Positions 895 through 37,759 of a stretch of 63,694 bases of DNA are shown one piece after another. The stretch is taken from NCBI GenBank assembly GCA_027579435.1, contig JANBPK010001072.1, forward strand, positions 1-63,694. Reading direction: 5' to 3'. The notes beneath the pieces were generated by a model that worked only from the letters and a program-made list of their open reading frames with translations, was not told where the DNA came from and made no database searches. Numbering within the stretch: position 1 is the first letter of the stretch; each line of letters starts with the position of its first letter. The position numbers were made by a program, and so were the translations under genes. Origin of the DNA: Candolleomyces eurysporus (lineage: Eukaryota; Basidiomycota; Agaricomycetes; Agaricales; Psathyrellaceae).

Positions 895-1944
895 TTATGT
901 GGATCGTGGGCCAGCGCTCCGCCTCCTTCGGGTTCCACCAATCGCCGAACGCCGGCCCGTACCTCGGCGCTTCCTGGTCTGCCTTCGGCGTCTCCCGCCC
1001 CCGCTCATTTGCCGCGCATCAAGTTCGGGAAGCCCATCCGAGGTCCTTGCTCCAAGGACTGGGACCTCGTTGAAAAGATCGAGCTCTCGTTCATACAGCT
1101 CGGGAACATCGAGCTGTTTAAGCGTGGACATTCAGTTGCCTGGATTGCAGCTAAACAGTAATAGGAGATGGGAAACATACCTCTAGGCTTCGCTTCCTGG
1201 ATCCTCCTGACATGACTTTACCGACAAGAGCAGTAGTCAGGATCCCTGCAGCAGACTGGGTGACGGGGTGGTTGAAAAATGCGCTAGCACCCTGCTTGAT
1301 TTTGTTCCATGTATTCTGAGCTACGCGTTTTTCGAGTTCGTCAATGTCGAAATTGCGATTATCTATGTCGGACAAATCGAGCTGGAAATGCGCACATAGA
1401 AACAGTCAGCAAGGATGATAAAAACGAAATGGCTCCTGTGAGAATTCAGGGAGCCGTTGAATACGGACCTCGAGACTTCTTTTCCCTTGACGACGATTGC
1501 TGAATGAATCCATAGCTTTATTTACACCCCAGGTCGCGCCTGCTCCGACCGCTGTTGTAGCCGCGGTTTGGACGATGGGAGAATTGAAGAAACTGCTGGC
1601 TCCTTTCTTAATCGATTGCCAGACATTCGGAGCGCGTCCCTCCAAATCGTCCAGGTCGAAGTGACGATTATCGATCTCTGACAGGTCCAGCTGGTATAAA
1701 TACGGTCAGCTAGTGCGTTAAAGAGTAGGAGTGAGTGCGACTGACCTCTAGACCTCGTCTGAAGTTCTGAGTCGACGGTTCATCGAAGTTGACCTAGAAT
1801 ATTGATGGAAGTCAGCTGTTACTAGAACTTTTTTTCGCTTTTGAGAGATGAAATTGTCGAAGCCTAACTGACCAGGGGTGCTGCAGAAGCTTGAAGAGCG
1901 ATGGAAAGGAAGACGAAACCAGCGGAGATAAAGTTGGTGCGCAT
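895..1944 (-). CDS. Modular secreted peptide precursor (copy A)
   Basis: Five exons, all introns phase 0: 1873-1944, 1746-1793, 1469-1690, 1181-1381 and 895-1113, giving 253 residues. Exon 1 is a complete signal peptide (starts MRTNFISAGFVF, ends SAAPL). Exon 2 is an acidic pro-piece ending FRRGLE. Exons 3 and 4 are repeat modules: each starts LDLS.IDNR.FD, has LE.R about 18 residues in, then a basic Trp-containing segment with a W..IK.GAS.FFN.P core, and ends KRSLE. The last exon is acidic (LDVPELYERELDLF) and then strongly Arg-rich. Alternating acidic spacers and basic segments at KR, RR or LE.R sites is the plan of Kex2-processed secreted precursors, so extracellular peptides are inferred. 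The start is the only ATG that gives a signal peptide and is shared by all copies. The stop TAA TAG is directly followed by GTGAGT, a probable 3' UTR intron. Confidence 0.8.
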
Positions 1945-2075
1945 TTCTGCAGTCACAAATGTCAGTCGGCAAGTGACAATGGCTACACGGTAGTGACTCA
2001 CTGACTGAATGGAAGAGTGGTAGTAATGGATTTTTTGACAACTATTGATTATTTGGGTTCAAATTCCTGCTTGTA

Positions 2076-2186
2076 GGGACCGGCCCTGTTGATTATCCGA
2101 TAGGAAGAAAGGTTGAGGAGGAAGGTGAATAAGAGAGAAGACCGGCTTCTTGCTCTCTAACCTCTCGCCTCGCTCCACCCTTTATA
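2076..2186 (-). promoter_or_regulatory. Promoter and 5' leader element of copy A
   Basis: Reading on the minus strand: TATAAA at 2186-2181, a block AAGAAGCCGGTCTTCTCTC near 2153-2135, then AGGGCCGGTCCC at 2087-2076, about 130 bases before the ATG. The same order of elements precedes all ten peptide genes. A probable 5' UTR intron (GTGAGT to CTGCAG) ends two bases before the start codon. Confidence 0.6.
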
Positions 2187-2189
2187 CTG

Positions 2190-2892
2190 CTCAAGACGAT
2201 CCTCACAATCGCTCTGTAGATGCTTGTAGGTCCAGCCCATATCGAAAATTGATGATCAGGCTGTGATGACGGCTATCCGGTTGGGTTCAATCAGCCTGGT
2301 GTGTTCATCATCTCAACCTCAGTCAGCCTCTCGTAACTGTCTTTGAGCCTAATCATGCCTATTGCAGNAAAAAAATGGGATGTGCGCTCAACTCCGTCGT
2401 GATTCAATGGTGGCAGTGGCTGTTGGTGGACTATCTCAGTGGTGTAATCATAAGTAGGCTCAAAAACGTAGATGTATTACGATGATCATAGAATAGGTCA
2501 GACCCGTTACCGTCGCACAAGGTCTCGATTGAGATTTTTTCCCGCTTCGCAGGCTTTAGGCATGGACCGTCCTTCTCCAACTGGTTCCTTCATCACGGTT
2601 CCGAGTTCGACAGTTAGATGGACGACACTTGCAAACAATTTGAAGATGTTGTTTTTCATTCCTACAGAATCCGAATAAATTTGATCCTACAGAAGCGGCT
2701 AGTGCAGTATCAACACACCAAACTGCTTTGCTCTTGATATTTGTTTAGCAGCTGCGGAGCGCAAAGCCTCAAGGCAACCACCACCTCCCCATGGGAGTGC
2801 AGGGTGTCGACGGTTGCTTCTGGCAATAGTGCAAACTTGGAGAGGAGGAAACATCATTAATATTTAATCACAGCTACAACTACTTTGGTGTG
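2190..2892. other. Intergenic region upstream of copy A
   Basis: No gene seen. The sequence is a diverged copy of the region upstream of copy B (about 5640-6400), including the ATTACGATGATC and GGAG.G.GTCGACGG landmarks. It stops matching before the point where a propeller gene would begin and runs into the inverted repeat at 2893. Confidence 0.5.
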
Positions 2893-3700
2893 TATACTAG
2901 GTGAGTGCCGATCGACCGTGGAGATGGAGATTTGACTCAAACTTTTATAGGCCGCCAACGAGCTCGATGAGTCGGTGGGAAGGAAGCCCTACATGGAAAC
3001 GAGATGTGTTGGCTGATGAACGAGGCTAACGGCTGCTAGTGACGTTTACATAACTTGCAATTACGCTCTAGTATAAAATTTACTAGAGAAAGAAAAGCTG
3101 CGTGGTTGCTTAATAGAAACCTTCGAATATTTACACGAATTTGAGGTTTCCTCTTTTCCCCGTATATATCTTCATATGAGCATTCAGTGACAACTTGGGT
3201 CCCACCAAGCTAACTTAGGAATTTCCGAGGTTGCGATCACGTCAAAAGCTCGGCCTCAAGTTGGAGGGTAGAGGGCTCGAGGTCAACCCCTTTAGGCTTG
3301 CACAGTCAAACGATAAGAAGCAATACCCACATGGTGGATTGGCTTGGCTTAGCACAACCATCCTTGTCAACTTGGGGTAAGTATGTCAAATGTCAGGAGA
3401 CGAGCCTTTGATATCTTATTTTTCTAATTTGGAGTTCAGACGCACTATTACAGGGGATACCTATAGATCTCCCTTCGTCACCTGCATGCTCCTACCACAG
3501 AAGCTTGTATGGAATAGCGAATCGAATACTGAGCACACGTTCTTATTCCCCCAGGTTCCAGGATCGTTATAGTCGTTCGCTTTCCCCGTTGGGATCGTCA
3601 CAAGATATCCGAGACGGGTTCTCGTTCGCACCACCAGCCTGACCGCTGCCTGTCCATGTCTCCAGGCACTTTCAACATCTATAATGGGAAATGGAAGAAG
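2893..3700 (-). repeat. Inverted copy of flank repeat R
   Basis: Starts on the plus strand with TACTAG|GTGAGTGCCGAT, which is the stop-plus-intron junction seen on the minus strand at the end of copies B, C and D. It then runs, in inverted orientation, through the segments found at 560-900 and at about 9560-10450. Copy A therefore sits between two oppositely oriented R copies. This marks an inversion or a foldback insertion during array growth. Confidence 0.6.
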
Positions 3701-3759
3701 GAAACTTGTACTTTGTCTTCCAGAGTGCGTTTGGGCGGACTATCAAGACATGGTACTCC

Positions 3760-3855
3760 AAGAACAGGAAACTCGTTGAAAAGATCGAACTTGCGTTCAT
3801 ACAGTTCGGGAACATCGACCTGGTTAAGCGTAGACATCCAGTTGTTGGAGTGCAG
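3760..3855 (-). pseudogene. Relic of the last exon of a peptide precursor
   Basis: On the minus strand this matches the start of the last exon of copies A to D: a VPELYER-like sequence followed by Phe-Asp-Leu-Phe-Asn-Glu, with the intron end still next to it. No other exon of the gene remains on either side, so it is a solo exon left by rearrangement. Flank repeat R resumes at about 3870. Confidence 0.6.
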
Positions 3856-3869
3856 TCTCCACCGTACAA

Positions 3870-4288
3870 TTTGAACAGGTCGAGCTCTTACGCTATCGCA
3901 CCCTCGGAAACTAGTACGCGCTTACTCAGTGGGGGCCCAATTCGTCACCGAATACTCACATAAAGATATGTACAGAGAGAAGAGGAAACTTTAAGCTCAT
4001 GTAGATATTCAGGGATTTCCCTTAATATGAAAACCACGCAACCTCTCTAGTAGGTGCTGTACTGGAACGTATTTGTAAGGAACGTATTTGTAAGGTATTG
4101 AAAAATCACTAGCAGCCGTCGGCCTTGTTCATCAACCAACACATGTTGTCCTCCACGCTGTCACTGGCTACGTTGGGATGTCGATGTACCGCTTCCTTCG
4201 CACCAACCCATGGAGCTCGCTGGCATTCTAAGAGAGCTTCGTTAAAATCTCCATCTCCACTGAGCATTATTGGTTGGTCGGCACTCAC
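3870..4288. repeat. Flank repeat R downstream of copy B
   Basis: Direct-orientation copy of R, containing the 3' UTR and probable 3' UTR intron of copy B. A short direct repeat (two copies of GGAACGTATTTGTAA, near 4073-4102) is unique to this copy. No gene seen. Confidence 0.6.
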
Positions 4289-5390
4289 CTAGTACGCAGA
4301 CCGTGGGCCGGCGTTCCGCCACCTCCGAAGCCTTCTAGCGGGGACCATTGCGCCAACTGTCGGATCCTGGTCCATACCTTGCGCACCCTGCGGGCTCATG
4401 CCACTGCTCATCCGAATTCGCCTCCTGATCTGCCCTCGGCGTCTCCCGCCCCTGCTCATTTGCCGCGCATCAAGTTCGGGAAGCCCATCCGACGTCCTTG
4501 CTCCAAGCACGGGGACCTCGTCGAAAAGATCGAGCTCGCGCTCAGACAGCTCGGGAACATCGAGCTGGTTGAGCATGGACATTCAGTTTCTTGGGATACA
4601 GATAAAGAGAGATGGAAGACGGCCGACATACCTCTAGGCTTCTCTTCCTGGATCCTCCTGACAAGACTTTACCCATAAGAGCAGAAGTCAGGATCCCCGT
4701 AGCGGTCTGGGTCACGGGGTGGTTGAAAAATGCGCTGGCACCTTGCTTGAACCTGTCCCATTTACTCTGAGCCACGCGTTTCTCGAGTTCGTCGATGTCA
4801 AAGTCGCGGTTATCAATGTCGGACAAATCCAGCTGGAAATGCACAAACAGAGACCATCAGCATGCATGATAAAAGCGACGGGGCTCCAGTGAGAACCCAG
4901 GTGGTCAGTGGACACGGACCTCGAGACTTCTTCGCCCTTGGCGACGATTGGCGAAAGAATCCATGGCTCGATTCGCACCCCAGGTCGCGGCTGCTGAGAT
5001 CGCTGTCGTACCCACGGTTTGGACGATGGGAGAACCGAAGAACTTGCTGGCGCCCTTCTTGATTGAATCCCACAACCCTGCTCGTGTCTCCAAATCGTCC
5101 AGGTCAAAGTGACGGTTATCAACCTCTGAGAGGTCCAGCTTTTATCAATAGAGTCAGATGGTGCGGTGAAATGTGGCGGTGAGTGCGGCTAACCTCTAGA
5201 CCTCGTCTGAAGTTCTGAGTCGACGGTTCATCGAAGTTGACCTAGAATATTGATGAAAGTGAGTTTTTATTAGCACTTTTTTACTTTCGAGAGACGAAAA
5301 TTTCAAAGCCCAACTGACCAGAGGCGCTGCAGACGCTTGAAGAGCGATGGAAAGGAAGACAAAACCAGCGGAGATAAAGTTGGTACGCAT
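4289..5390 (-). CDS. Modular secreted peptide precursor (copy B)
   Basis: Exons 5319-5390, 5194-5241, 4920-5138, 4632-4832 and 4289-4564, all phase 0, 271 residues. The signal peptide is nearly identical to copy A. The first repeat module has LETR then a Trp-containing segment with DSIKKGASKFFGSP, ending RRSLE. The second has LEKR, then a Trp-containing segment with KFFN replaced by AFFNHP, ending KRSLE. The last exon starts LDVPELSERELDLF and ends in an Arg-rich tail longer than in copy A. Expected processing at KR/RR would free basic peptides of roughly 40-50 residues separated by acidic spacers of about 20. The stop TAG is directly followed by GTGAGT. It lies divergently from the intact propeller gene at 7201, the same pairing as in the two later units. 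Confidence 0.8.
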
Positions 5391-7200: not shown

Positions 7201-8473
7201 ATGGCAAGAATCGGGATTCGTGCCCTCACCCTCGCGCTAGGCTCGCTCTTCGCCCTCTCGGCGTCCGCTGGCTCCACAGGCCCGAACCAGTGCATCTCGT
7301 TCGACGCCTCCTGGAACCTCCTCGCCTTCAACTTTGATGGCAAGGACTACAATGCTGGCACCCAAGACGCCTTTTCGTCTGCCTCCTCCGCCTCAGCAAC
7401 GGACATCACGACGACGGGTCGACCCCCCTTCGACGTCCCCACCTCCTCCCCTCTCTGCTTCCTCTCAAAATTCACCAATTCCATCTACGTGCTAAATGCT
7501 GACAAGTCCGACATCTCTTCGATCTACATCTACGATGCTACTGCCAAGTCGTGGAGCAAGCAAAAGACTGGAGGCGCTGCACCCAAGTCGTTCGACCCCT
7601 CGACCTTCGGAGGCATCCTAGACCATGATACCAACGTATTCTACGTTTTGAGTGGCGGAGAGATTCTCAGCTTGGATATGGCGCTGATGAAGGCGGCTGT
7701 CCCCGGCGAGCTGACGTGGAACGACGTTCAGAAGCCTGAACTTCTTGATATCGAGGGCAGTGGTGCTTCCTATGAGCCTGTGCTGGCCTTGGCTCAGAAC
7801 CACATTCATTTCTTGGGTGTCCCCGGGATGCCAGCTGGCGAAGCCAAAGTTTTCGTTATCCACTGTGAGCATCTGTCTATATTTATTTCGAGCCTTGACT
7901 AACGATTTAATTTTAGATTCGTTCCTTCAGCCTGAGCCGCAATCATACGGGTCCTTCCCAACGGCACACGGCAAGGTCGCATCCTTCTTCAAGGACACTG
8001 GCGTCCAAACTCAGTTCGCGTACATTCAAGACGATGCAAGCTCCACTTACGTCGTCGACGTCATCGCCAATACCACACGCACCCTCCCCGGCCCAACAAC
8101 CAAGGATCCTTTCGCGCAGTACGCTGCCTCTCCTGATTCCCTCGTCCAGTTGGCATCCGAAGGCGGCAAGCTTTCGTTCATCTCATACAACCAGGGGAGC
8201 GGACAAGCTGGCTCGTGGCAGACCATTTCGGCCGTTCCGGCGGCGAAGAACACTCCGGAAACTAGTGGTTCTTCTGCTTCCGCTAGCGCCGGAACAAACA
8301 GGACATCCACCGGCTCGAACAGCACTACCGGCACTGCAAACGCGAACACCAACAACAACACCAACACCAACAATAACTCGGCTGCTGGTATCACTGCTGG
8401 AAGGAATGTTATCAGTGCAATGGTTCTTGGGTTGGTGTTGGCAGCCGGTGGTGTTGTCGGTGTCGGATTGTGA
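7201..8473 (+). CDS. Secreted GPI-anchored beta-propeller (kelch-like) protein
   Basis: Two exons, 7201-7864 and 7917-8473, 406 residues. There is an N-terminal signal peptide (starts MARIGIRALTLALG). The middle has repeated beta-strand-like units such as NSIYVLNADKSD, SSIYIYDATAKSW and NVFYVLSGGEILSLD, typical of kelch-like propellers. Residues about 310-375 are Ser/Thr/Asn-rich with an Asn-Thr repeat and N-glycosylation sites. The last 25 or so residues are a hydrophobic tail (VISAMVLGLVLAAGG), fitting a GPI-attachment signal. The likely location is the plasma membrane or cell wall. The gene is divergent from peptide copy B, and the pair was duplicated twice. This is the only intact copy. 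The propeller class is judged from strand pattern only; the substrate or partner is unknown. Confidence 0.75.
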
Positions 8474-9478
8474 TGACAGGTGTGCCTTGTGGAAGAACAA
8501 CGCGGACTATTTCCGACACGCCGGACTTCTGGACCTGTTTTATTTTTGGGATTGTGTTGTGTCTGTCTATTCCCGTTTCTATTCGTTCCTAGGACTTTTT
8601 TTTGGACTCCTTTGCCGTAGCCTGTCTACTGTTCACGACTAGCATCATCATTTATCATTCATTCTGCGCTGTACATACCATACGAGCGCTTAGCATATCC
8701 ATTCAACGTTACGATAACAGACGGACTGGCCTGGACCTATTACATACAATCGCGTACCCTACTGGAATGATTAATTCAGCCTTCGCTTTGGTCGAAGGTG
8801 GTCTTTGTTCTCTTCTATTCACACGCTTACCTCTTCCTCCCGTCATGTCGCCGACTGAATATGGCCGTTCATACCGCCTCAAGATATTATGCCCAGACAT
8901 GAACGCCACGCCACCTCCATGGCAGCTATCAACGCGACCCTGCACAACGACGGCGCTTGTTATTCAGGGGGACGTGGCAGGAGATGCCGTACTTATATTT
9001 ATGGGCGCTTGCCGGTTCTATATTGAGTGGCTCACGCGAGTGATACTCATCGCATTTTTGTCTTCAGAACACAGGGCTGTTCTATCTGGCAATCGACGTC
9101 TGCTAGCGCTGCTCATCTTCATCTTTCTTCTTGCTCCCATTCATCAGAGTGTGATCTTCAATGCGATGCGGCATAGCCAAAGACCATGTATCCATCTTCT
9201 CCCATGCGAGTACGTCCATGCGTCGTTGGAGCTCGTTCAATACATTCAAAAGAGCATCGACCGTTCGACGATGCGGGAAGATCATAAGTTAATCCGCGGC
9301 GGAAAGGGATATATCTTCTTCTTTGTGAGGATCATGTCTATCTTTTAGCTCTGGTTCTGGCCATCTGGAATGGTTTTGGCTATCTAACATTCAATTTTCC
9401 AGCACACAAACAATGGGTTTTTTGGTTTGCACAGCTAAGCTGTATATATAGACTTTGGTATGTCGGGATTTATCAGGC
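8474..9478 (+). other. Conserved 3' flank of the propeller gene, coding status doubtful
   Basis: This flank is nearly identical after all three propeller copies and recurs, diverged, at 23170-24055. An open frame at 8602-9348 (248 residues, several hydrophobic stretches, starts MDSFAVACLLF) is present, but in the third unit the same frame stops at 20744. In the second unit a much longer frame (14252-15772) runs through part of the propeller coding sequence. I see no introns, no family match and no sign that the frame is protected, so 3' UTR or a decayed gene is more likely. Confidence 0.4.
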
Positions 9479-9479
9479 T

Positions 9480-10486
9480 CATTGAGCACGACACCCAACC
9501 TCACCGATAAGGACGATCGTCCGTCACATCTGTTCGGAAATGGCAGTTCTTGAATGCTGGACCCTTTCGATGCTTCTGCGGCGCCTTGATAGTCCGCGCA
9601 AACTCACTCTGGACGACAAAGGGTAAGTTTCCTCCTTCGATTTCCTGTTCTAAATTCTCAACGTATCTGGCGACATTGACAGGCGGCTGCCATGCTTGTG
9701 GTGTGAACGAGACCCTGCCTCGGATATCTTGCGATGACCCCAAGTGGGAAAAGTGAGCAATACTTACTATACCTATCATGAACCTGGAGGAATGAGAACG
9801 TGTGCTCAATATTCGAGAGTCGCGATTCGTTTTTGACAAGGCCGTCACTGCTATTCAATCCAAGCTCCGGTCGAAGGAGCGTGTTGCAGGTGACGGAAGG
9901 AGACTTATGCAGATCTCCTGAAATGGTGCGACTAAACTTCAAGTTAGAGACGAATATCAAAGACTCGCCACTTGGTACTTGACATAGCTACCCCAAGTTG
10001 ACAAGGATGGCCGTACCAAGCCAAGAAAACCCCTTGAATCGTCATGTACGTATTGCTTGTGGTTGTTTAGCTCTGTATACATCTAAAGGGGTTGGCATCG
10101 GCCCTCCATCGTCCAATTTGAACAGGCCGAGCTCCTACGCTATCGCAGCCCTGCAAACTCGTGAGTTTACCTTGTGGAGCCCAATCAGTCACCGAATACC
10201 CACATGAAGATATGTAAAGGGAGAAGAGGAAACCTCAAGCTTAGGGAAATATTAAAGGATAAATATGATTTCCACGCAACCTCTCTAGTAAGTACTATAC
10301 TGGAACTTGCAGCCGTCAGCCTTGTTCACCAACCAACACTTCTCGTCTCTCTGCTCTGTCATAGGCTAGTTTAGGACGCCGATGTACCGCTTCCTTCTCA
10401 CCAACCCATCCAGCTCGTTAGAAACCTAAGAGAGCTTCGTTCAAATCTCCATCTCCACTGAGCACAATTGGCTGATCGGCACTCAC
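9480..10486. repeat. Flank repeat R, full copy
   Basis: About 1 kb between the first propeller flank and peptide copy C, repeated at 15770-16773 and in pieces at 560-894, 2893-3700 (inverted) and 3870-4288. On the plus strand a possible spliced reading is visible: a frame with LRRLDSPRKLTLDDKG, GTAAGT at about 9629 and an acceptor near 9682 followed by RLPCLWCERDPASDIL. The donor is lost in the inverted copy. It may be a relic of a gene now carried as part of the repeat. No family recognised. Confidence 0.5.
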
Positions 10487-11704
10487 CTAGTATGCAGACT
10501 GTGGGCCCTGGTCCGTAACTTGAGAACGCGTAGGCCTCATCCGAACTCGTCTCTTGAGCTCCTCTGAAAGTCCACTGAGCCTCCTCCTCTGCCGCACATC
10601 GAGTTCGGGAAACCCATCCGAGGTCCTTGCTCCAAGCACGGGGACCTCGTTGAAGAGATCGAGCTCGCGTTCATACAGCTCGGGATCATCGAGCTGGTTG
10701 CGTGTGGTCATTCAGTTTCTTGGATTACAGCTTCGAAGAAATAGAAGACGGCCAACATACCTCTAGGCTCCTCTTTTTAGAACTTCCTGACGGGGTACCA
10801 GAAGCCAGGTTTACAGTGACTGGGCGGCGCGGGACTGCGCTAGCAACCTGGTTAAACTTGTCCCATCCGCCCTGAGGTACGCGTTCTTCGAGCTCGTCGA
10901 TGTCAAAGTCCCGGTTATCGATGTCGGACGAATCGAGCTGGAGATGCGCACACGGAGACAGTCAGCAAGCATGATATATAAAACGACATATCTCCTGTGA
11001 GAATCTAGGTAGGGATTAGACACGAACCTCGAGCTCTCTTTTCCCCGTAAGAGCTCCCATCACTGCTGAACCCACGCCTTTGACGATGGGATGAGCGATG
11101 CCACCCAAAAACTTCGCGACTCCATGGAAAAAGTTCGGGTCTCGTTCTTCCAAATCGTTCATGTCGAAGTGGCGGCTATCGATGTCGGACAAATCGAGCT
11201 GGAGATGCGCACACGGAGACAGTCAGCAAGCATGGTATATAAAACGACATGTCTCCTGCGAGAATCTAGGTAGGAATTAGACACGAACCTCGAGATCTCT
11301 TTTCCCCCNTAAGAATTCCCATCACTGCTGAACCCACGCCTTTGGTGATGGGATGATTAGCGATGCCACTGATAGTCTTCCAAAAGTCCGGGGCTCGTCC
11401 TTCCAAATCGTTCATGTCGAAGTGGCGGTTATCGATCTCTGAGAGGTCCAGCTGGTATTGATGAAGTCAACTGGTGCTGTAAAAGGTAGCGGGGAGTGCG
11501 ACTAACCTCTAGACGTCGTCTAAATGTCTGGGTCGACGGTTCATCGAAGGTGACCTAGAATATTGATGGAAACAAATTATTACTAGTACTTTTCTCACTT
11601 TAGAGAGATGAAGTATTTGAAGCCTAACTGACCACCGGTGCTGCAGATGCTTGAAGAGCGATGGAAAGGAAAACGAAGCCAGCGGTGATAAAGTTGGTGC
11701 GCAT
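10487..11704 (-). CDS. Modular secreted peptide precursor (copy C, three modules)
   Basis: Exons 11633-11704, 11507-11554, 11289-11451, 11028-11198, 10761-10937 and 10487-10693. About 278 residues if the N at 11309 is a false insertion (removing it restores phase and gives an ILRGKRDLE end). The signal peptide is as in copies A and B. Exon 2 ends FRRRLE. Three modules follow: two short related ones (starts LDLS.ID.RHFDMNDLE.R, ends KRDLE and KRELE, with GGIAHPIVKGVGSAVMG-like segments) and one with LEERVPQGGWDKF ending KRSLE. The two short modules and the introns after them are almost identical, so one is a recent exon duplication; copy D has only one. The last exon is LDDPELYERELDLF plus a basic tail. 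The stop TAG is followed at once by GTGAGT. Confidence 0.75.
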
Positions 11705-11838
11705 CTCTGCAGCCGTAAATGTCAGTTGTCAAGTGACGATAGCTATATGTTGGTGACTTACTGACTGTATATGAATTAAAGAGAGATAGTAATGGATTCG
11801 TTGACGATTGATTATTTGGTTTCAAATTCCTGTTCGTA

Positions 11839-11944
11839 GGGACCGGCCCTGTTGAAAATCCGATAGGAGGGAAGGAGGAGGAAAGTGAATGAGAGAAGAC
11901 CGGCTTCTTGCTGTCTAGCCTCTCGCTTCACTCCACCCTTTATA
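11839..11944 (-). promoter_or_regulatory. Promoter and 5' leader element of copy C
   Basis: Minus-strand TATAAA at 11944-11939, the AAGAAGCCGGTCTTCTCTC block near 11911-11893 and AGGGCCGGTCCC at 11850-11839, as in the other copies. Confidence 0.6.
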
Positions 11945-11959
11945 CTCCTCAAGACGAGT

Positions 11960-13510
11960 CTCACCTTTGCGCGCTGGATATCAATGTTTGTAGGTCCAAC
12001 TCTCGGTCGACATTGATAATCAGGTTTTGACGGCCGCTGACCGGTGCATTCAATCACGCGTTTGTACTTAGGTTCAACCAGGCTGTCGTACCCGTCCCCG
12101 AGCACGCCTCTCGCGGAAAAAAGGCATGTGCGCGCAACACCGTCGTTCGTAGTGATCCAATGGTGACAGTGGCTGTCGGTGGACTATCTCAGAGGTGTAA
12201 CAACAAGTAGCCTCAAAAAACGTGGATATATTACGACGATCGTGGAAAAGGCAAACTGATGATCGCTGCTCTTTGAACGAGCTCGATTAATATTTTCCTA
12301 CTTTGCAGGCCTACAAGCAAGAATCGTCCTTTTCCGGCTGGTTACCTCATCACGGTTATGAGCTCGATGGAAATTTGATCCTACGGATACGGCTAATTCA
12401 CTGTCGGGCGACCAGAGCGCTCTGTGCATCGCTTTTGATATTTGTTTACAGATGCAGTAATTCACTGGCAGTATCGATGGACCTGAGCGCTCCGCGCTCC
12501 CCTTTTGATATCTCTGTTTAGCTACGAAGCGTACACACAATACATGACGCCCAAGCCTGGTGAGGGCAACTACCACCCTCCTCACCGGAATGGAGGGTGT
12601 CGACGGCTGCTTCTGGCAATAGTGACAACTTGAAGAGGAGGAAACATCGTACAGCCACAAATACTTCAACTTGACCCGAAAACTACGATGTCTCCGTACC
12701 ATTGCCAGCTAGCCACACGACCACACATCCTAGTTGTCTGCTGGCATACAGCCAATAGGTTCGTTTGGGTTCCACAGCCAAACGAAGATCACAGGGGGAG
12801 CGCGGAGGTCTCTAGTCTATAACGCGGCCACTCGCCTTCTTTCTGGGATCTGATGTTCGGCCAGGCTCCGAAGAGTGAGGAAGTTCGCTTCGGACCAGAA
12901 AGGCCGAGATATTTTCCTCGGTTGACCGCGTGACGTCACGTCACTCCAATTTACCACAGTACAAGAAATCGCCGGGTTGAAAACGCTGCCCCCCACCTCT
13001 CTTTCTTCCTTTCCCCAACTATAATTTATAAAAATGCCCTCTTTGTTTCCTTCAATTTCCGCTATCCTCCCTACTGGTCTAAAATCCGATTGCCCGGAGA
13101 CATCGTTCTGACGGCGATGAAATCAGATGAACCCATATGATCTTGAAGCCAACCGATCTTACCTCATGTTGCCAAGTTACGAGGTTTCGCAGCGGTGTTC
13201 CCTCTCAGAGTATTCTCCTCGTCGTATTGAGGCAGGCAATATTGAGGGGGCGTTGAGCTTGAGGTGGGCTCGGAGAAGTGAGGGGAAAGACGGGCGCTTG
13301 GAGGACTCGGAGTGGCCTCAGGGTCGCCGTGATCCGACTCTGATCCGCTGATGGGATTAAACTCTGACGGTGGTGGCTTCTTATTCGTTTCGATTTCATC
13401 ATCGTCTTGCATCACACCCCACTCTACTCCCGTTTCACTAACCTCCACCAGTCCTTTCTCTAACCCTACCTTACTAACTTATACTATCCTTACCCTCCCT
13501 CTAACCACAG
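11960..13510. other. Divergent intergenic region, second unit
   Basis: Repeat of 5640-7200 with no supported gene. The CRE palindrome TGACGTCA is at 12931-12938. The CTAAC..CACAG run that resembles a 5' UTR intron end lies directly before the truncated propeller frame. Confidence 0.45.
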
Positions 13511-14757
13511 CATCCTCGCACTTGGCTCGCTCTTCGCCCTCTCGGCGTCTGCTGGCTCCACAGGCCCGAACCAGTGCATCTCGTTCGACGCCTCCTGGAA
13601 CCTCCTCGCCTTCAACTTTGATGGCAAGGACTACAATGCTGGCACNNAAGACGCNTTNTCGTCTGCCTCCTCCGCCTCAGCAACGGACATCACGACGACG
13701 GGTCGACCCCCCTTCGACGTCCCCACCTCCTCCCCTCTCTGCTTCCTCTCAAAATTCACCAATTCCATCTACGTGCTAAATGCTGACAAGTCCGACATCT
13801 CTTCGATCTACATTTACGATGCTACCGCCAAGTCGTGGAGCAAGCAAAAGACTGGGGGCGCTGCACCCAAGTCGTTCGACCCCTCGACCTTCGGAGGCAT
13901 CCTAGACCATGATACCAACGTATTCTACGTTTTGAGTGGCGGAGAGATTCTCAGCTTGGATATGGCGCTGATGAAGGCGGCTGTCCCCGGCGAGCTGACG
14001 TGGAACGACGTTCAGAAGCCTGAACTTCTTGATATCGAGGGCAGTGGTGCTTCCTATGAGCCTGTGCTGGCCTTGGCTCAGAACCACATCCATTTCTTGG
14101 GTGTCCCCGGGATGCCAGCTGGCGAAGCCAAAGTTTTCGTTATCCACTGTGAGCATCTGTCTATATTTATTTCGAGCCTTGACTAACGATTTAATTTTAG
14201 ATTCGTTCCTCCAGCCTGAGCCGCAATCATACGGGTCCTTCCCAACGGCACATGGCAAGGTCGCATCCTTCTTCAAGGACACTGGCGTCCAAACGCAGTT
14301 CGCGTACATTCAAGACGATGCAAGCTCCACTTACGTCGTCGACGTCATCGCCAATACCACGCGCACCCTCCCCGGCCCAACAACCAAGGATCCTTTCGCG
14401 CAGTACGCTGCCTCTCCTGATTCCCTCGTTCAGTTGGCATCTGAAGGCGGCAAGCTTTCGTTCATCTCGTACAACCAGGGGAGCGGACAAGCTGGCTCGT
14501 GGCAGACCATTTCGGCCGTTCCGGCGGCGAAGAATACCCCGGAAACTAGTGGTTCTTCTGCTTCCGCTAGCGCCGGAACAAACAGGACATCCACCGGCTC
14601 GAACAGCACTACCGGTACCGCGAACGCGAACACCAACAACAACACAAACACCAACAATAACTCGGCTGCTGGTATCACTGCTGGAAGGAATGTTATCGGC
14701 GCAATGGTTCTTGGGTTGGTATTGGCAGCCGGTGGTGTTGTCGGTGTCGGATTGTGA
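13511..14757 (+). pseudogene. Propeller gene, second copy, start codon deleted
   Basis: Almost identical to 7201-8473, with the same intron (exons to 14148 and from 14201), GPI-type tail and stop. Compared with the first copy, 27 bases are missing across the start codon, so the frame now begins ATC CTC GCA with an upstream in-frame TAA and no ATG. The signal peptide has lost its first residues. Ns at 13646-13658 add uncertainty. Without an unseen upstream exon supplying ATG (a splice-acceptor-like CACAG sits at the junction), the product cannot be secreted. Confidence 0.65.
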
Positions 14758-15769
14758 TGACAGGTGTGCCTTGTGGAAAAACAACGCGGACTATTTCCGA
14801 CACACCGGACTTCTGGACCTGTTTTATTTTTGGGATTGTGTTGTGTCTGTCTATTCCCGTTTCTATTCGTTCCTAGGACTTTTTTTGGACTCCTTTGCCG
14901 TAGCCTGTCTACTGTTCACGACTAGCATCATCATTTATCATTCATTCTGCGCTGTACATACCATACGAGCGCTTAGCATATCCATTCAACGTTACGATAA
15001 CGGACGGACTGGCCTGGACCTATTACATACGATCGCGTACCCTACTGGAATGATTAATTCAGCCTTCGCTTTGGTCGAAGGTGGTCTTTGTTCTCTTCTA
15101 TTCACACGCTTACCTCTTCCTCCCGTCATGTCGCAGACTGAATATGGCCGTTCATATCGCCTCAAGATATTATGCCCAGACATGAACGCCACGCCACCTC
15201 CATGGCAGCTATCAACGCGACCCTGCACAACGACGGCGCTTGTTATTCAGGGGGACGTGGCAGAAGATGCCGTACTTATATTTATGGGCGCTTGCTGGTT
15301 CTATATTGAGTGGCTCACGCGAGTGATACTCATCGCATTTTTGTCTTCAGAACACAGGGCTGTTCTATCTGGCAATCGACGTCTGCTAGCGCTGCTCATC
15401 TTCATCTTTCTTCTTGCTCCCATTCATCAGAGTGTGATCTTCAATGCGATGCGGCATAGCCAAAGACCATGTATCCGTCTTCTCCCATGTGAGTACGTCC
15501 ATGCGTCGTTGGAGCTCGTTCAATACATTCAAAAGAGCATCGACCGTTCGACGATGCGGGAAGATCATAAGTTAATCCGCGGCGGGAACGGGATATATCT
15601 TCTTCTTCTTTATGAGGATCATGTCTATCTTTTAGCTCTGGTTCTGGCCATCTGGAATGGTTTTGGCTATCTAACATTCAATTTTCCAGCACACAAACAA
15701 TGGGTTTTTTGGTTTGCACAGCTAAGCTGTATATATAGACTTTGGTATGTCGGGATTTATCAGGCTCAT
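14758..15769 (+). other. Propeller 3' flank, second copy
   Basis: Near-identical repeat of 8474-9478. A 506-residue open frame at 14252-15772 overlaps the second propeller exon in another frame. It exists only because a few stops differ from the other copies, so I do not call it a gene. Confidence 0.4.
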
Positions 15770-17729: not shown

Positions 17730-17863
17730 CTCTGCAGTCGTAAATGTCAATTGTCAAGTGACGATAGCTATATGTTGGTGACTTACTGACTGTATATGAA
17801 TTAAAGAGAGATAGTAATGGATTCGTTGACGATTGATTATTTGGTTTCAAATTCCTGTTCGTA

Positions 17864-24657: not shown

Positions 24658-25576
24658 ATGCGTGCCAGTTCCATCTCTGCTGGATTTGTCTTCCTTTCCA
24701 TCGCTCTTCAAGCATCTGCAGCACCGGTGGTTGGTCGCGCTTCAATAATCATCTTTTCTTGACAAAGAGATTCTAAGTTCTTCCTTGTTCTCCTTGATCC
24801 TTTAGACCTTCGACGAACCTCGCTCTCGGCGGAACCTCAAGAGAAAGCTAGATGTGAGTCTTGATTTAAGTCATTACCGCCTGCTCAATATTTACTCCAT
24901 TGATATCAGCTGGATCTGTCAGACATTGATAACCGTTATATCGGCCTGGACGACCTGGAAGCGCGAGGGAAGTTCAAGGAAGCGTTCAAGGGAGCATAGA
25001 AATCCGTCAAAAAAANGTGCGAATAAGGTCGTGAGAGATGCTAAAAAAGTCATCAACTCCCCGGTTACCCGCAACATCGTCAAATCGGGTTTGCGGGCCG
25101 CCGCGAACGCAGGCGTGAGTAGCATCTTTGGACCAAGCAAAAGGAGTTTGCAGGTATGTGTTCGATGATATTGACAACCATAAAGGTATTTTGTGTGCTG
25201 ATTGTCTCTACGCGTTTCCCGATAGCTCGACCTATCTGAGTTGGACAATCGCGACTTTGATCTGGACGAGCTCGAAAGACGCGTAGCAGAGAGCAAATGG
25301 CAAAAGTTTAAAGATGGTGCTAAAGCGGTTCTCAAATCCCCCGTAACTCAGAGGATTGCGGGCCTCGCTTCTGCTTTCCTTGTGAATAAAATGATTGCAG
25401 GCATGCAGCAGAAGAGAAGCTTAGAGGTATGATTTACGTCTTGCACAATTTGTCGAGATTCTGGGGTTTGACTAAATGTCTGAAATCACTAGCTTGACGC
25501 TCCTGAACTGAGCGAACGCGACCTCGACTTTGCCGACTGGTTGCTGGAAGCAAGGAGCTTGGATAGATTGGACTGA
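24658..25576 (+). pseudogene. Modular peptide precursor (copy F) with one in-frame stop
   Basis: Same five-exon plan as copy E: 24658-24729, 24806-24853, 24910-25153, 25226-25426 and 25493-25576. The signal peptide, the exon 2 pro-piece (ends KRKLD), the second module (LERRVAESKWQKF, core KDGAKAVLKSPVTQ, ends KRSLE) and the acidic last exon are intact. In the first module, TAG at 24997-24999 lies in frame. Everything downstream stays in phase if the N at 25016 is a false insertion, so the lesion is a single nonsense codon. All splice sites look functional. It is a very young pseudogene, a sequencing error, or a truncated product carrying only the signal peptide and pro-piece. Confidence 0.65.
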
Positions 25577-27268: not shown

Positions 27269-28216
27269 ATGCGCTCCACCATCGTCTCTGCCTGTCTCCT
27301 TGCTTTGACCCTCCTCAGCTCCCAGGCCGCTTTGGCCCGACCTATCGTCAGTCCCACCCCCTCATTTCATCTGCCCTATTGTGCTCACTTACCTCAACTT
27401 CGCAGGATTTCGAAGGCAACACCGAATCCGACTTGGCCCTCCGAAACTCGGAGATCGTCGCCGATGGGTTGGAAGTCGACGCTCGTAGCATTGAAGAGGT
27501 CGGCTCGACATTCTTTCTATTACAACAGACGGTTGATCTCTTCATGACATCTACAGCTCTTCGAACAGCTCGAAGCCCGCACCAAGAGGCTTGCCGGTTC
27601 TCCACCAGGTGGTAGACCCCGAGCCTCTCCACGAGGCGGTGCTCCACGAGGCGGTGCTCCACGAGGCGGACAAAATCAAAGGCAAAGGGCAGGAAACCAG
27701 AACCAGAATCGCAACTCTGGAGGAAGAAAAAGCACTGGAATCGGGAGAGCCATCGGCCGTTTCTTGAACTCCGGTACTGGACAGAATATCGCAACCACGA
27801 TTGCGGGAGGTATTGCGCAAAGGATAGCAAATGGAGGTCGAGGTGCTCAGCCCGGTATTGCGGTACGCAACAATCAATCTTTAAATGTGACCTGTTGTCT
27901 TACTTTCTCTGCTCTTCTAGCGACGAGAGCTAGAGGAGTACCTTGAGGCTCGCACTCGTCGTCGTGGAAGCGGTGGGGGGCGAAAGAGCACTGGAATCGG
28001 GAGAGCCATTGGCCGTTTCATCAAGTCCGATGCTGGACAGAATATCGCAAACACGCTTGCGTCGGGCGTTGCGCAAAGAATAGCAAATGGGGGTAGGAAT
28101 GGTGCTGGTCAGCCCGGATATGTGCGTAAGCAATCAGCCTTTTAATTTTTCAGAGTGACTCACTTTCTCTGTTCTTCTAGCGCCGGGAGCTTGAGGAGTA
28201 CCTCGAGACTCAGTAA
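27269..28216 (+). CDS. Modular secreted peptide precursor, subfamily 2 (RRELEEYLE type), first copy
   Basis: Exons 27269-27346, 27406-27498, 27557-27862, 27921-28121 and 28181-28216, all phase 0, 237 residues. Signal peptide starts MRSTIVSACLLALTLLS. An acidic pro-piece follows (GNTESDLALRNSEI..). Two modules start with an acidic helix (LFEQLEART KR; RRELEEYLEARTRR), then a Gly/Arg/Gln-rich linker, then a basic segment with IGRAIGRF and a .GQNIA.T.A.G.AQRIANGG tail. A third, minimal exon has only RRELEEYLETQ. The coding sequence is not alignable with copies A-F, yet intron phase, acidic-basic alternation and leader element are the same. The linker of module 1 carries a three-fold 15-base repeat encoding PRGGA. 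Confidence 0.75.
27615..27665 (+). repeat. 15-base in-frame tandem repeat
   Basis: About three copies of CCACGAGGCGGTGCT, encoding Pro-Arg-Gly-Gly-Ala units in the linker of the 27269 gene. The 31074 paralogue has no such run, so it expanded after duplication. Confidence 0.7.
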
Positions 28217-31073: not shown

Positions 31074-31948
31074 ATGCGCTCCACAATCGTTTCCGCTGGC
31101 CTCCTCGCTTTGACTCTCCTCACTTCCCAAGCCGCTTTGGCCCGACCTATCGTCAGTCCCATCCCCTCATTCTACTGCCATATACTCACATACTTCAATT
31201 ACGCAGGCAATTGAGGGCAACACCGAGGCCGACTTGGCCCTTCGAAACTCGGATATCATCGCCGATGGGTTGGAGGTCGAAGCACGTAGCATTGACGAGG
31301 TTGGTTCGGCATTCTTCCTAGTTTACAACGGAGGGCTGATCTCTGCATGTCCTACAGCTCTTCGACCAGCTCGAGGCCCGTGCCAAGACCAAGGCTAAGC
31401 AGAGAGCTGGCAATTCTGGTGCGAAACCACGAGGTGGTGGCCAGAACAGGCAAAGAACTCAGAACCAGAACCGCAACTCTCGCCCACGAAATGGTGGCCA
31501 GACCAGGCAAAGAAATCAAGGCCAGAATCGCAACTCTGGGTCGCGGCAGCGAAACGGACCAAGCACGCTGGGCAGGATCTTGCGCTCGCCTGTGACTAGT
31601 AACATTGCAACCACGCTTGCTGGAGGTGTTGCACAGAGGATCGCGGGTGGTGGTGCTCCCCCTGCTGAGGGTGTTGAGGTAAGCAAGCGAAAGCACCCGT
31701 TGAATTCATGAATCAGGTTACTCACCTCGTTGCCCTTTTAGCGACGAGAATTTGAGGAGTACCTCGAAGCTCGCACCCGTGTTAAGGGTAACCGAAGGCA
31801 GAGTGCCCCCAGACAGAGCACCCCACGCACGAGCTCTGGCATTGGGAGGACCCTCAACCGTGTCTTGAACTCTCAAACTGGTCAGACGGTTGTGTCCACT
31901 TTGGCGGACGGTGTTGCACAGAGAATCGCTAACGGAAGTCAGGGCTAA
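31074..31948 (+). CDS. Modular secreted peptide precursor, subfamily 2, second copy
   Basis: Exons 31074-31151, 31207-31299, 31358-31678 and 31742-31948, all phase 0, 232 residues. Paralogue of the 27269 gene with almost the same signal peptide (MRSTIVSAGLLALTLLT). An acidic pro-piece (GNTEADLALRNSDII) precedes two modules. The first starts LFDQLEARAK and has a long Gln/Arg/Asn-rich linker with several QNRN repeats before a basic segment (STLGRILRSPVTSNIA, AGGVAQRIAGG). The second starts RREFEEYLEARTR and ends in GIGRTLNRVLNS and GVAQRIANG. It lacks the third mini-exon of its sister. The SPVT motif is shared with modules of copies A-F, hinting at common ancestry. Confidence 0.75.
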
Positions 31949-32533: not shown

Positions 32534-33137
32534 ATGCGTACCAATTTCATCTCCACTGGTTTCCTCGTCCTCGCCGTGATGGCTTTCCAAGTATCTGCGG
32601 CACCCGTGGTCAGTCGTTTCTCAAACTGGGGTATAATTGTAGGCGCCGACTTCTTCAGATTTTCACTGTACGCCAGCTATCATTGGAGCCAAACCCCAAC
32701 GTCAGACGAAGCATGCAGGTGAGCGGTAGTTTAGTGGTGTGGGCTTCGCTCTGATGCGTCAACTCCGCTTTGTTAGGGTGATATTTCGGATCTCAAAATG
32801 CGGGAATTGGAGTTTTTGGAAAGGAACCTTGAAGAGGACCTTCTGCCCAGAGCACGGCTGCTTGGGGAGATGAACAGTGGTAAGTCCCATGATTTACATG
32901 TAGGTGTCTCATCCATACCATCTTCTCTCAAAGGAAACCATTGGTTACTCACTCGTTTTTATCTAGCCCTCCGACCTCAGGTTGAGCGGACGCGATCTGC
33001 AAGGCCTTCTCGAGCTTGATGAGCGCGACCTCGAAGACCTTGAGGGCAGGTTCGTCATTCTGCCCATGCTTGCCAAGTGGGGACCGACAGCTATTCGGGC
33101 TGCTCAGGCGGTGTACAAGAAGGTTCGAGGCCAGTAG
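32534..33137 (+). CDS. Short secreted peptide precursor (single C-terminal peptide)
   Basis: Exons 32534-32608, about 32677-32718, 32777-32879 and 32967-33137. Signal peptide starts MRTNFISTGFLVLAVM, clearly that of copies A-F. Exon 2 ends NVRRSMQ. Exon 3 is acidic (LEFLERNLEEDL). The last exon has ELDERDLEDLEGR, then a basic C-terminal segment with Trp-Gly-Pro in its middle (LAKWGPTAIRAAQ) and a Lys-Lys end. Only one basic segment is present, at the C-terminus. Exon 3 to exon 4 is off by one base with the visible GTAAGT and TCTAG sites, so either a base is wrong, an exon border is misjudged, or the gene is frameshifted. Confidence 0.55.
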
Positions 33138-34325: not shown

Positions 34326-35353
34326 ATGCGTGCCAACATCATCTGCGCTGGTTCTCTCGCCCTCGCCATGACTCTCCAAGCCGATGCAGCACCTACCCAG
34401 AACTGGAAGCGTGCGCTCGAAGTTAGTACCAGCCTCCATTGTGAACTATCAATCTCCATGGATCTTAATTCACTTGGTTGTGATCTTTAGCTGGACCTCT
34501 CAGAAATCGACAACCGAGCTTTCGACCTGCTGGACGAAAGAGATGCCCGCAATCTCGGTCAAAGATTCATAAACAAAGTCAGTGCGTTCGTCAAGTCCCC
34601 CACCGTCCAGGCCATAGGTTCTGCCGTTGGCTCGACCCTTTTNGACGGCTGCTGTGGGCCGAGTGATCAAGAGAAGTCCAGAGGTATGTCGTGTTCGAAC
34701 GTTTTGGTTACCAATGAGCTTGAGAGCTCAAATCTGGTCACGATTCCCTTCTAGCTGGACCTCTCCGAGATAGAAAATCGCGACTTCGATCTCGACGAGC
34801 TCGAGGAACGAGAACCTCAACGAGGGAGGCCTGCTCCAAGGCCCGCCGCCAGGTCCGGGATGAATCTCCCGTCGACTAACGCCATGGCCAACACTCTCAA
34901 GAGAGTTGGTTCATCTCCCACTGCTGGCAGGGTCCTTCAAACCGCAGCCCGGGGGGCTCGGAGGATAATCACTTCGCCTACCGTGAAGAACTTGGCCGCG
35001 GGAGCTGGCAGATTCATTGGCCGTCTGATTGGACCGAGGAGCTTGGAGGCACGTATTTCAAGATTCTCTCCGCTGATCGCATGCTGATGCAGGACGCGTT
35101 TAATCAGGGTGACTTTACCGAACTCAGTGCTCGTGACCTTGAGCTTCTCGAACAGTTGCTCCAACGAAGGGAGTTTGGCGGAAGCGTTGGCCCTATGAAA
35201 CGAGGGTTTAATGTAAGCGTCAGCGCACTATTGCATAAGAATTGTCTAACGCACCCATTCCAGCCGGCGGATGAGCTCGAGCTCAATGAACGCGCCTTGG
35301 ACGTTCTTCTGGAGCTGGTGACAAGGGATCTTGAGCTGAACGAGCTCGACTGA
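34326..35353 (+). CDS. Modular secreted peptide precursor (copy J)
   Basis: Exons 34326-34421, 34491-34683, 34755-35048, 35093-35212 and 35264-35353, about 263 residues if the N at 34643 is a false insertion. The signal peptide (MRANIICAGSLALAM) and the pro-piece ending WKRALE share one exon, unlike the other copies. Module 1 starts LDLSEIDNRAFDLLDER, has a basic segment with FVKSPTVQ and ends KRSPE. Module 2 starts LDLSEIENRDFDLDELEER, then a long Arg/Pro/Ala-rich region with two SPT motifs, ending PRSLE. Two acidic tail exons follow (ELSARDLELLEQLL, LELNERALDVLLELV). The third intron needs a GC donor (GAG|GCACGT); the relic copy has GTACGT at this place. A convergent membrane-protein gene follows and was duplicated with it. 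Confidence 0.72.
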
Positions 35354-35497
35354 GGTGATAGACTGCCATTAGTGTTGCTGGAATAACATCGTCTTTCCTT
35401 TTGTCAAATTCGTCCCTATATGGTGTCAAATCGACTGCGAGGACGCGACTTGCATAATTGCCAGTAAAGGAGGCCGTTTGATCGTATCCTAATACAT

Positions 35498-36762
35498 TCA
35501 CTTGTCTTTGGTCTCTGAATCCGAAGCATTCTGTGTACGAGGGCGAAGCACATAGGGAGCCGTGACGCCAACTGAAGCGAACGGGCTAGCGACGAGGAGG
35601 TAGATGGTAGTGAAGAGATTGAGAGTCGTCGAAGAGACCACAATCCAGATCACGAATGAGATCGTGGTCCAAACAACGTCCCAGCCGATGGAAGACTGGG
35701 CAGGGTGCGAATGGAGGGTTATCCAAGCAGCTCTGAAAAGTGCATATGGTGATTGATCGATTTCTGGGAGAACGCTCGCTGCATTGAGTACGGTGCGGGA
35801 CCGAATGGGAATTGAACATAGGAAAACGGCGCGATAGAAAATGCTGAGGCTGAAACCTGTTTTGGTCGCCTTCAGTGGCGAAACGGAAAGCAGTGGTAGC
35901 ACGATGAGGACATGCATGATTAAAAGATTGGGGAGGAAAGTCTTCTCGTCGGTGAAGGGACTGATTGGGATTGTCGCCAGAGAAATGAAAACAGGGACCC
36001 ATAGTTTTGCCGGCACAGCAATACTACCCTCCCGACGAGGTTGAGGTTTCCCAGAAAGGAGCGCGATGTAGAACAGATTGGAAGCCACTGATATAGCGAC
36101 GACTTGGCCCAAGAGCATATACGCCCATACGTGCTTGATTTGATGATGTGACCCTGAGGCGGCTGGTCAAAGATGCGAAACCGACAGACTCCGGCTGCGA
36201 AAGCTTACCTTCGACATAGAGAAAGATCGTCCATGCTCCGACCGTGAACAAGCAGAGTTGCTCGCTCCACCACCAATTCATTTTGCCGAAGCAGACTGCA
36301 GCCCAAGCTTCCTCGAAAAGTGAGGTTTCGCAAAGCCAGTTGGCGACACGTATGAGAATGCCGGAGGACGCGGCGATGCCATTCTTGGCCTCGAAGTTCG
36401 AAAAGCTCCACTGTACACGGGAATGTTAGTCTTGGTAGAGAAACGATACTCAAATATACACACAGCCATATATTGGAACATGTCTGGCGTAAAATTAGTC
36501 TTTGGATTGAGAAGTCCGAACAATCCCAACACTCACAAAACCAGGTGTGGGCGAATGAAGCCGCCGTGAGAATCCAGAACAGATCAATCAGAGAGCTTTT
36601 GCGCCCCCTCTCATTCTGGGAGGAAGCAATTTGGATACTGTCCAAGACGCGAGTGAAAAGCCACAGGATGAGGGCGAAATACGAGGTGAAGATACCAAGC
36701 GCCAGCAATTGTTGCGGACCCAGGGCGGCAACTTCGGCAATGAGGTCCTGAAGCATATCCAT
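35498..36762 (-). CDS. Polytopic membrane protein of unknown function (copy 1)
   Basis: Exons 36537-36762, 36464-36483 (a 20-base micro-exon), 36209-36410 and 35498-36153, 367 residues. At least seven hydrophobic helices are visible: LLALGIFTSYFALILWLF, the LFWILTAASFAHTW region, QLCLFTVGAWTIFLYV, MLLGQVVAISVASNLFYIAL, the VFISLATIPISPF region, LIMHVLIVLPLLSVSPL, a segment around SIFYRAVFLCSIP, and two near the C-terminus. There is no signal peptide beyond the first helix and no catalytic motif that I recognise. ATG 36756, two codons downstream, is an alternative start used by the paralogue. It faces the peptide gene at 34326. A role in peptide export, self-protection or sensing would be speculation from position only. 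Confidence 0.7.
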
Positions 36763-37160
36763 AGGGTAGGGACCAGATATGACTACACCAAANGGGGGAT
36801 GGGATTCTAATGCCCTTGAGGATGTTCACTGTGAAGCGCCTATCGTGGAGAGCGATCTTTTGCTGGCAGTTGGAGGTCAACACCCTTAGATGTAAGCGCA
36901 TGCAAACAAGCGCAAAGGACGCGTAAACAGTCTACCTTGCACACCAAACCCTGGGCCGTTCCTTTCAATCATGCACCGCCGTTCTCAGCGATTGCCCGGA
37001 ACGGAACATGAGTCTTCTTTACTTTTTGTTTTTTGAATTCCCCTCAAGCCGCACTGACGCCGGCATTGACGGACTAAGGAGATGGACGTCGATTGATACT
37101 ACGACTCGCCCGCCGTAATGTGCGGTGCGGTTGGGTCCAAATTCTCCAGAACGGGTCGCC

Positions 37161-37759
37161 ATGACTCTCCAAGCCTCTACAGCACCTATTCACAGCTGGA
37201 ATTGTGTGCTCAAAGTTAGTACCAGCCTCCATTACGAACTTATGAATCTCCATGAATCTTAACTACCGTGATGAACTTTGGCCAGGAGCTGGTAGAGCTA
37301 TGAGCCGTGCGATCGGGTCGAGGAGCCTAAAGGTACGTTCTTCAAGGTTCTCCTCGCTGCTTCCATGCTGATGTTGGACGCGTTTAAACAAAGTGATATC
37401 CCGGAACTCAGTACTCGCGACCTTGAGCTCCTCGAGCAGTTGTTTTAAGAGAGGGAGTTTCACCTGCCTCAGTTATATGAGCGGCAGAAGCCCCATCGCC
37501 AGCTAACAGGTTCATGAACTAGGTCAAAACTCGCAGATTCTCAAGGATTTCGGGAAGAGTGTGGCCAGTGGCGCCTTGACCGATGTTGCTGGAAGGGTCA
37601 GCCCTGTGAGCCGGTGTAAGTGTCGGTGCCCCACTCTATAAGATTGTCCAACGCACCTTAGACTATCTCAGCGGCAGATGAGCTTGAGCTCAATGAACGC
37701 GATTTAGACATCCATCCTGAGCTAGTGAACAATGACCTTGAGCTAACAACCTCGACTGA
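37161..37759 (+). pseudogene. Decayed copy of the 34326 peptide precursor
   Basis: Scattered matches in order: the second half of the signal peptide and TQNW-like exon end (37161-37215), the end of module 2 (AGAGRAM.RAIGSRSLK-like, about 37285-37334), the first tail exon (about 37380-37448, stopped by TAA) and the second tail exon (37675-37759, with an internal stop). Module 1 and most of module 2 are deleted. The GT donor after module 2 is intact here, unlike the GC of the parent. Confidence 0.7.

Follow-up and report, generated by a model that had tools for sequence, protein, structure and literature searches.

The 63,694 nucleotides of contig JANBPK010001072.1 of the agaric Candolleomyces eurysporus (C77 in full, positions 1-63694, hereafter the window) harbor an array of ten related genes between positions 744 and 35353, g1-g4 on the minus and g5-g10 on the plus strand. 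With a probability of roughly 0.55, these genes encode precursors of the type of the fungal Kex2-processed repeat proteins (KEPs), from which linear, mostly cationic peptides with a predicted helix-hinge-helix shape would be released, likely as membrane-disrupting agents against competitors or grazers. The array itself is real, coding, and changing; its peptides are most likely membrane-active, a function that we infer from their sequences. With its ten paralogues, the window covers most of an array that likely extends further.

Architecture and extent of the array

The genes were modelled from splice sites (Table 1), and the gene structure is settled for nine of the ten models, the exception being g9. 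Every model starts with a hydrophobic, signal-peptide-like N-terminus ending in ASAAP or ALARP. In seven genes (g1-g6 and g10), the core module occupies a single exon with phase 0 at both ends and follows the order LDLS.IDNR.FDLD.LE.R, core, KR or RR, and mostly SLE; the second module of g10 has Arg alone before SLE. The module exons of g1-g6 show GT-AG borders, g10 requires one GC donor, and single N letters were omitted from exons in the models of g3, g6, and g10. Three models (g2, g7, and g8) are identical to deposited proteins, and the end of g3 equals a fourth, P0003. For g2, the first 242 residues matched P0001 independently and the last exons were adopted from that protein. Two more short terminal exons than originally predicted belong to g1 and g2, with g1 extending to 744; g3 and g4 stop before these exons.

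Within the modules, spacers carry a net charge of -4 to -9 (mean -5.7, 14 listed) and cores a mean charge of +4.7 (lowest +1, 23 listed). The original prediction had described acidic spacers alternating with basic segments at KR, RR, or LE.R borders, and this alternation is borne out, as is a ten-gene array with related signal-peptide-like starts. A common pattern runs through the cores: first W, then [IVF]K.GA, a Pro, and finally a half that is hydrophobic. The Pro is present in all 20 aligned cores and the early Trp in at least 90% of them.

Each gene is preceded by a common leader. Every gene has one copy of the motif GGGCNGGTCCC 78-142 bases upstream of its ATG, and these ten copies are all that the window contains, against 0.06 expected, which excludes chance. 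A second motif, AAGAAGCNGGTCTTCTCT, was not found before g7 and g8. Searched with up to one mismatch through the genome (65.9 Mb in 1296 contigs, as in all whole-genome searches), it gave 20 matches, all exact and all before array genes on the four array contigs (8, 3, 5, and 4), compared with four for the reversed pattern. For GGGCNGGTCCCTA, 20 of 22 genome matches fall on array contigs (control: three). TATAA is located 163-258 bases upstream of the ATG in eight genes. This shared, nearly private leader suggests joint control of the array. Both leader motifs (e.g. at 2040-2160, minus strand) are inverted repeats round CNGGT, namely AGAAG-CNGGT-CTTCT and GGG-CNGGT-CCC, and possibly form the site of a dimeric regulator. 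A structured RNA leader was rejected: when six leaders were folded alone, none stood out from its shuffles (z -0.36 to 1.19), and Rfam gave nothing for positions 1-38000. More likely, the motifs form a DNA or linear element. An orphan promoter, claimed earlier, was not recovered, as every leader motif found in the window stands before a gene; promoters without these motifs were not sought. The solo terminal exon and the decayed gene of the same prediction are both present.

The ten genes and the relics were thus correctly placed, but the extent of the array was underestimated, as it runs on beyond the contig. Four further genes, whose signal exons are at 6237, 10119, 14083, and 17197, lie on C307 beyond the window's left edge, and C1262 holds a copy of g1 together with counterparts of these four. 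The region is present a second time, on C313 with 96.2% identity over 22 kb and on C1262 with 96.3% over 4 kb. About fourteen genes per locus copy are supposed; contig joining, haplotype assignment, and this count are only inferred, because the ends of C77 and C307 overlap at 97.7%, not 100%, and C1262 is partly unmatched: left of about 27590, no match of at least 250 bases at 88-90% or more was found in the three other contigs. Where C1262 stops matching, an element with long inverted repeats is located (C1262:27600-27935), possibly a small transposon at the breakpoint, or a misassembly. C313 has no counterpart of 8187-20664, the stretch with g3, g4, and copies of a neighbor gene; the join at C313:4623 falls within that neighbor gene and may be a repeat collapse.

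A second locus was rejected after searching the genome with three family members, the match counts being lower bounds. P0002 gave at least 87 matches, of which a single one (E 1.06) lies on C214 and the others on C77, C313, C307, or C1262. At least 18 were obtained with P0009, one of them on C1192 (E 0.14) and the rest on C77 or C313, and at least 44 with P0005, every one on the four array contigs.

Predicted processing and membrane activity

KEPs are a class already described in mushrooms (PMC9769878; this source and PMC6339444 are cited for parts of their text only), and the proposal of an undescribed type of system therefore does not hold. The accompanying reading as Kex2-type secreted precursors stands as a prediction, consistent with the fragments, dipeptides, and protease genes given here. 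The Le Marquer pipeline defines KEPs by at least four fragments of at least two residues at KR/RR (PMC6339444); cutting in silico gave at least four fragments in 11 of 12 precursors and three in g8. Between these sites lie five near-repeats in P0004 and two or three diverged modules in g1-g6. The second residue after the cut site at the spacer end is A or P in 20 of 25 modules (P in 15), a related, non-independent, and incomplete set of 13 modules from the window, five from sister contigs, and seven from Candolleomyces efflorescens; the background in the rest of the cores is 17.7% A+P and 3.8% P. The X-A/X-P dipeptide corresponds to the STE13 motif of basidiomycete KEPs (PMC6339444, PMC9769878). 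In four of the 25 modules, Gln would be exposed after dipeptide trimming; pyroglutamate and cleavage at single Arg are reported for basidiomycete KEPs (PMC9769878). The genome contains three PF01483 (Kex2-type) matches and one PF00930 (DPPIV/STE13-type) match.

It is supposed that the paralogous genes give rise to secreted precursors, which Kex2-type proteases would cut after KR/RR and LE.R, and that a STE13-type protease would remove the X-A/X-P dipeptide from the start of the core. The acidic spacer may mask the core until cleavage, after which the freed cores, predicted to adopt the helix-hinge-helix form, would disrupt membranes of competitors or grazers. Cyclic ustiloxin-type peptides (dikaritins), ribosomally synthesized and post-translationally modified, were rejected as products: of 16 UstYa-family matches (PF11807) in the genome, none is on C77, C313, C307, or C1262.

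The KEPs of other Agaricomycetes (Coprinopsis cinerea, Pleurotus, Lentinula) likewise combine a signal-peptide-like start with several cores between KEX2 sites and display X-A/X-P dipeptides; cleavage at single Arg was observed in them (PMC9769878). Their core peptides, as far as named in the cited parts of that source, measure 7-20 residues, whereas those of the Candolleomyces array mostly have 30-54; set against the same text, cores that diverge within a precursor, lie between acidic spacers, and come one per exon are the array's own features. The dipeptide motif, known from alpha-pheromones as well as from basidiomycete KEPs (PMC6339444, PMC9769878), would also fit peptides serving as signals, i.e. 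alpha-pheromone-like KEPs that target receptors, in the producing fungus or in a different one, instead of membranes. Such a role is unlikely: the cores of g1-g6 and g10 measure 30-75 residues, the paralogues diverge, a short repeated end is absent, and some cores match a lytic-peptide family.

That family is PF08102, the scorpion antimicrobial peptides. The precursor of g5 matches it in its first core (E 1.4e-7, 32.1 bits, curated cut-off 25), and g2 (22.8 bits), P0002 (17.0), g1 (14.2), and P0004 (13.0) score below the cut-off. When the 20 cores were scanned alone, 7 of them matched at E<=1 (best 3.2e-6). One core each went to three other families, among them pardaxin (E 0.038), and none of 24 plain and 24 residue-class-keeping shuffles matches any family. 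The numerous Pfam matches of P0004 (pardaxin, TetR_C_15, and others) were set aside as score inflation from its repeats. The original prediction had recognized none of the known families; relatives occur in two further Candolleomyces species, and one core exceeds the PF08102 cut-off. Since some cores match this family, membrane damage is likely. Like the scorpion peptides, the cores are cationic and cysteine-free. The family is described by Pfam as scorpion, whereas the Candolleomyces precursors are multi-core and exon-modular, and 13 of 20 cores are unmatched; for these reasons, convergence is more likely than descent.

The best PDB sequence for the core profile is pardaxin P-4 (a fish pore-forming peptide, PDB 1xc0), aligned over the hinge and the hydrophobic half at a non-significant E of 0.16, and the single PDB match of the g5 core is dermadistinctin-K (E 0.86); both are suggestive only. 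Whole modules gave just weak PDB matches to unrelated proteins. AlphaFold predicts two helices for the g5 module with a break just before the conserved Pro (predicted local distance difference test, pLDDT, 62), and for P0004 five two-helix units broken at Pro (mean pLDDT 43).

Two known precursors deserve comparison. Ece1 of Candida is a Kex2-cut multi-peptide precursor with a lytic helical peptide, candidalysin. The likeness, taken from description, concerns the precursor plan; Ece1 comes from a human pathogen, and the array family was found in Candolleomyces only. The Rep1 precursor of Ustilago yields Kex2 peptides of similar size, 37 residues, that affect hyphal wall properties (PMC6339444). 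Together with a hydrophobin gene on the same contig, it could support surface-active or structural peptides that coat hyphae or spores. This is quite unlikely, as it would explain neither the combination of acidic spacers and cationic cores nor the PF08102 match, the hydrophobin reading frames are about 12 kb away from the array, and module turnover is unusual for a coat. Rep1 peptides form amyloid-like fibrils (PMC9769878), whereas the array models are helical and the spacers acidic.

Coding constraint and module turnover

Pooled over eight allelic pairs, 64 non-synonymous differences at 4105 sites face 92 synonymous ones at 1333 sites, a ratio of per-site differences (pN/pS) of 0.226; allelic introns differ at 135 of 2183 positions (6.2%). 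The individual ratios are 0.09 (g1), 0.24 (g2), 0.14 (g5), 0.36 (g6), 0.29 (g7), 0.04 (g8), and 0.28 (g10), and 1.38 for g9, based on five changes in a doubtful model; g3 and g4, which have no second copy on C313/C1262, are outside the count. Coding constraint thus holds for seven of the eight pairs compared. Along 23900-46000, divergence from C313 amounts to about 9% per kb near g6, 6.8% at 33 kb, and 0.5-3.6% per kb at 36-46 kb; the gradient rises towards the g3/g4 insertion.

Spacers and cores evolve at different rates. In first-position modules (105 pairs), pN/pS is 0.17 for spacers and 0.59 for cores, and in second-position modules (36 pairs) 0.14 and 0.57, the pairs being mutually non-independent; close pairs give core values of 0.23 and 0.30. 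The two copies of g2 (P0001 and P0002) differ mostly within core 1. A conserved spacer beside a faster core is what a diversifying core would leave next to a spacer that holds the peptide in a harmless state and labels it for processing. The same conservation, and the spacers' being recognizable in C. efflorescens and Candolleomyces aberdarensis, could mean that function resides in the spacer, or in the uncut precursor, with the basic segments serving as linkers. This is very unlikely, since the cores are constrained too and match a peptide family, and a conserved acidic prosegment next to a variable mature peptide is usual in antimicrobial precursors.

Turnover of whole modules is seen in g3 (three modules) and g4 (two), which lie within a duplicated segment whose aligned pieces are 93.2-97.5% identical. 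The two introns flanking the middle module of g3 share 86 of 90 positions, and the only g4 intron at this place equals the first of them (90 of 90); therefore, exon and intron were duplicated as a unit. By this comparison, g4 appears to have lost the middle module or never had it, and the evolution of the array is best read as exon duplication and loss. A gene whose protein looks secreted and ends in a Ser/Asn-rich stretch occurs in three copies (7201-8473, 13512-14757, and 19318-20396, plus strand) that alternate with g2, g3, and g4, the third without a start and none with a Pfam match at E<=0.01. The copies trace a tandem duplication of a segment of about 6 kb.

Several results weigh against lytic KEP-type peptides. 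LE.R is a single-Arg site whose use as a cut site rests on other KEPs (PMC9769878, cited part). Only the g5 precursor exceeds the PF08102 cut-off, six others and four relatives do not, the scan gave no match for g7, g8, g10, and P0005-P0007, and 13 of 20 cores alone have none at E<=1. The pardaxin and dermadistinctin-K likenesses are not significant, confidence in both AlphaFold models is low, the hydrophobic moment is unusual relative to shuffles in just 9 of 23 cores, and core 2 of g3 has a charge of only +1. Finally, positive selection in the cores is unsupported, since their pN/pS does not rise to 1.

Coordinates, surroundings, and implications

Table 1. Parts of the array in the window and their positions
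Feature	Position	Strand	Remarks
g1	744-1944	-	signal exon 1873-1944, exon 2 1746-1793, core modules a 1469-1690 and b 1181-1381
g1 terminal exons	963-1113, 892-925, 744-822	-	splicing by analogy with g2
g2	4168-5390	-	core modules 4920-5138, 4632-4832; deposited as P0001 (H1R20_g10834); allele P0002 on C313
g3	10487-11704	-	three core modules 11289-11451 (one N), 11028-11198, 10761-10937; end equals P0003
g4	16774-17729	-	duplicate of g3 without middle module; modules 17315-17476, 17048-17224 (one N)
g5	21905-22780	+	core modules 22154-22357, 22430-22630
g5 core 1, best PF08102 match	22211-22339	+	E 1.4e-7 within precursor, 3.2e-6 alone
g6	24658-25576	+	two core modules; exon 3 (24910-25153) carries an in-frame stop; uninterrupted copy on C313
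g7	27269-28216	+	Gly/Asn/Arg-rich subfamily, two repeats; deposited as P0009 (H1R20_g10839)
g8	31074-31948	+	same subfamily as g7; deposited as P0008 (H1R20_g10840)
g9	32534-33137	+	signal-peptide exon and acidic exons; last two exons could not be spliced in frame
g10	34326-35353	+	core modules 34491-34683 (one N), 34755-35048 (GC donor); acidic terminal exons; relatives P0005-P0007
Solo terminal exon relic	3730-3822	-	E 0.028
Second short relic of last terminal exon, VRRKR-type	2951-2990	+	opposite strand to solo relic; read by eye
Decayed g10-like gene	about 37149-37757	+	with stops; pieces at E 5e-4 and 0.006
GGGCNGGTCCC before g1-g4	2076-2086, 5525, 11839, 17864	-	
GGGCNGGTCCC before g5-g10	21757, 24506, 27169, 30962, 32446, 34185	+	
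AAGAAGCNGGTCTTCTCT	example 2134-2151	-	before g1; also before g2-g6, g9, g10

Two related membrane-protein genes (35498-36825 and 37910-39140, minus strand) flank the decayed g10-like gene, both with a DUF2834 match, the second just below the cut-off. Because they stand on both sides of it, the decayed gene and its membrane-protein neighbor seem to have been duplicated together. Further to the right, two tandem, related, uncharacterized genes (40430-46230, plus strand) have a relative past the other array end on C307 and C1262 (67-69% DNA identity), and the locus looks as if framed by paralogues. A hydrophobin (PF01185) is encoded at 47212-47538 and a near-identical second open reading frame at 49025-49351, both on the minus strand.

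Three protein searches returned relatives from Candolleomyces only (C. eurysporus, C. efflorescens, and C. aberdarensis); they rely on shared 5-residue words, and the last two scored only about 8000 candidates, so that distant relatives may be missed. Since the three C. efflorescens proteins (MD484_g7752, g7756, and g7758) are each on a contig of 50813 bases, this species probably has an array too. In C. aberdarensis, EST38_g5803 is on one contig, and g11412 and g11413 are on contigs of 25559. Among the literature matches listed, judged by title and abstract opening, linear helical peptides from such mushroom precursors were not found described; nor were this family, its core type, and the array layout.

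A bolder picture has slightly less than an even chance, namely that of a venom-like arsenal made by the genus: a single locus whose roughly fourteen multi-core precursors share a private leader code that the genome has nowhere else. It would supply a lytic cocktail convergent with those of scorpions and fish, its cores would be duplicated, lost, and rewritten as single exons, and the two locus copies of one individual would encode different cocktails.

KEPs are widespread in fungi with largely unknown functions, and six Coprinopsis knockouts showed no phenotype (PMC9769878, cited part); redundancy within one array would explain such silent single knockouts. The explicit physical hypothesis of cationic helix-hinge-helix peptides masked by acidic spacers makes the function testable with synthetic peptides and vesicles, and the array-specific leader motifs offer a handle on the timing of peptide production. 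If the proposal is true, Candolleomyces would show, in a mushroom, both convergence with the lytic peptides of animals and diversification through the duplication and loss of whole exons.

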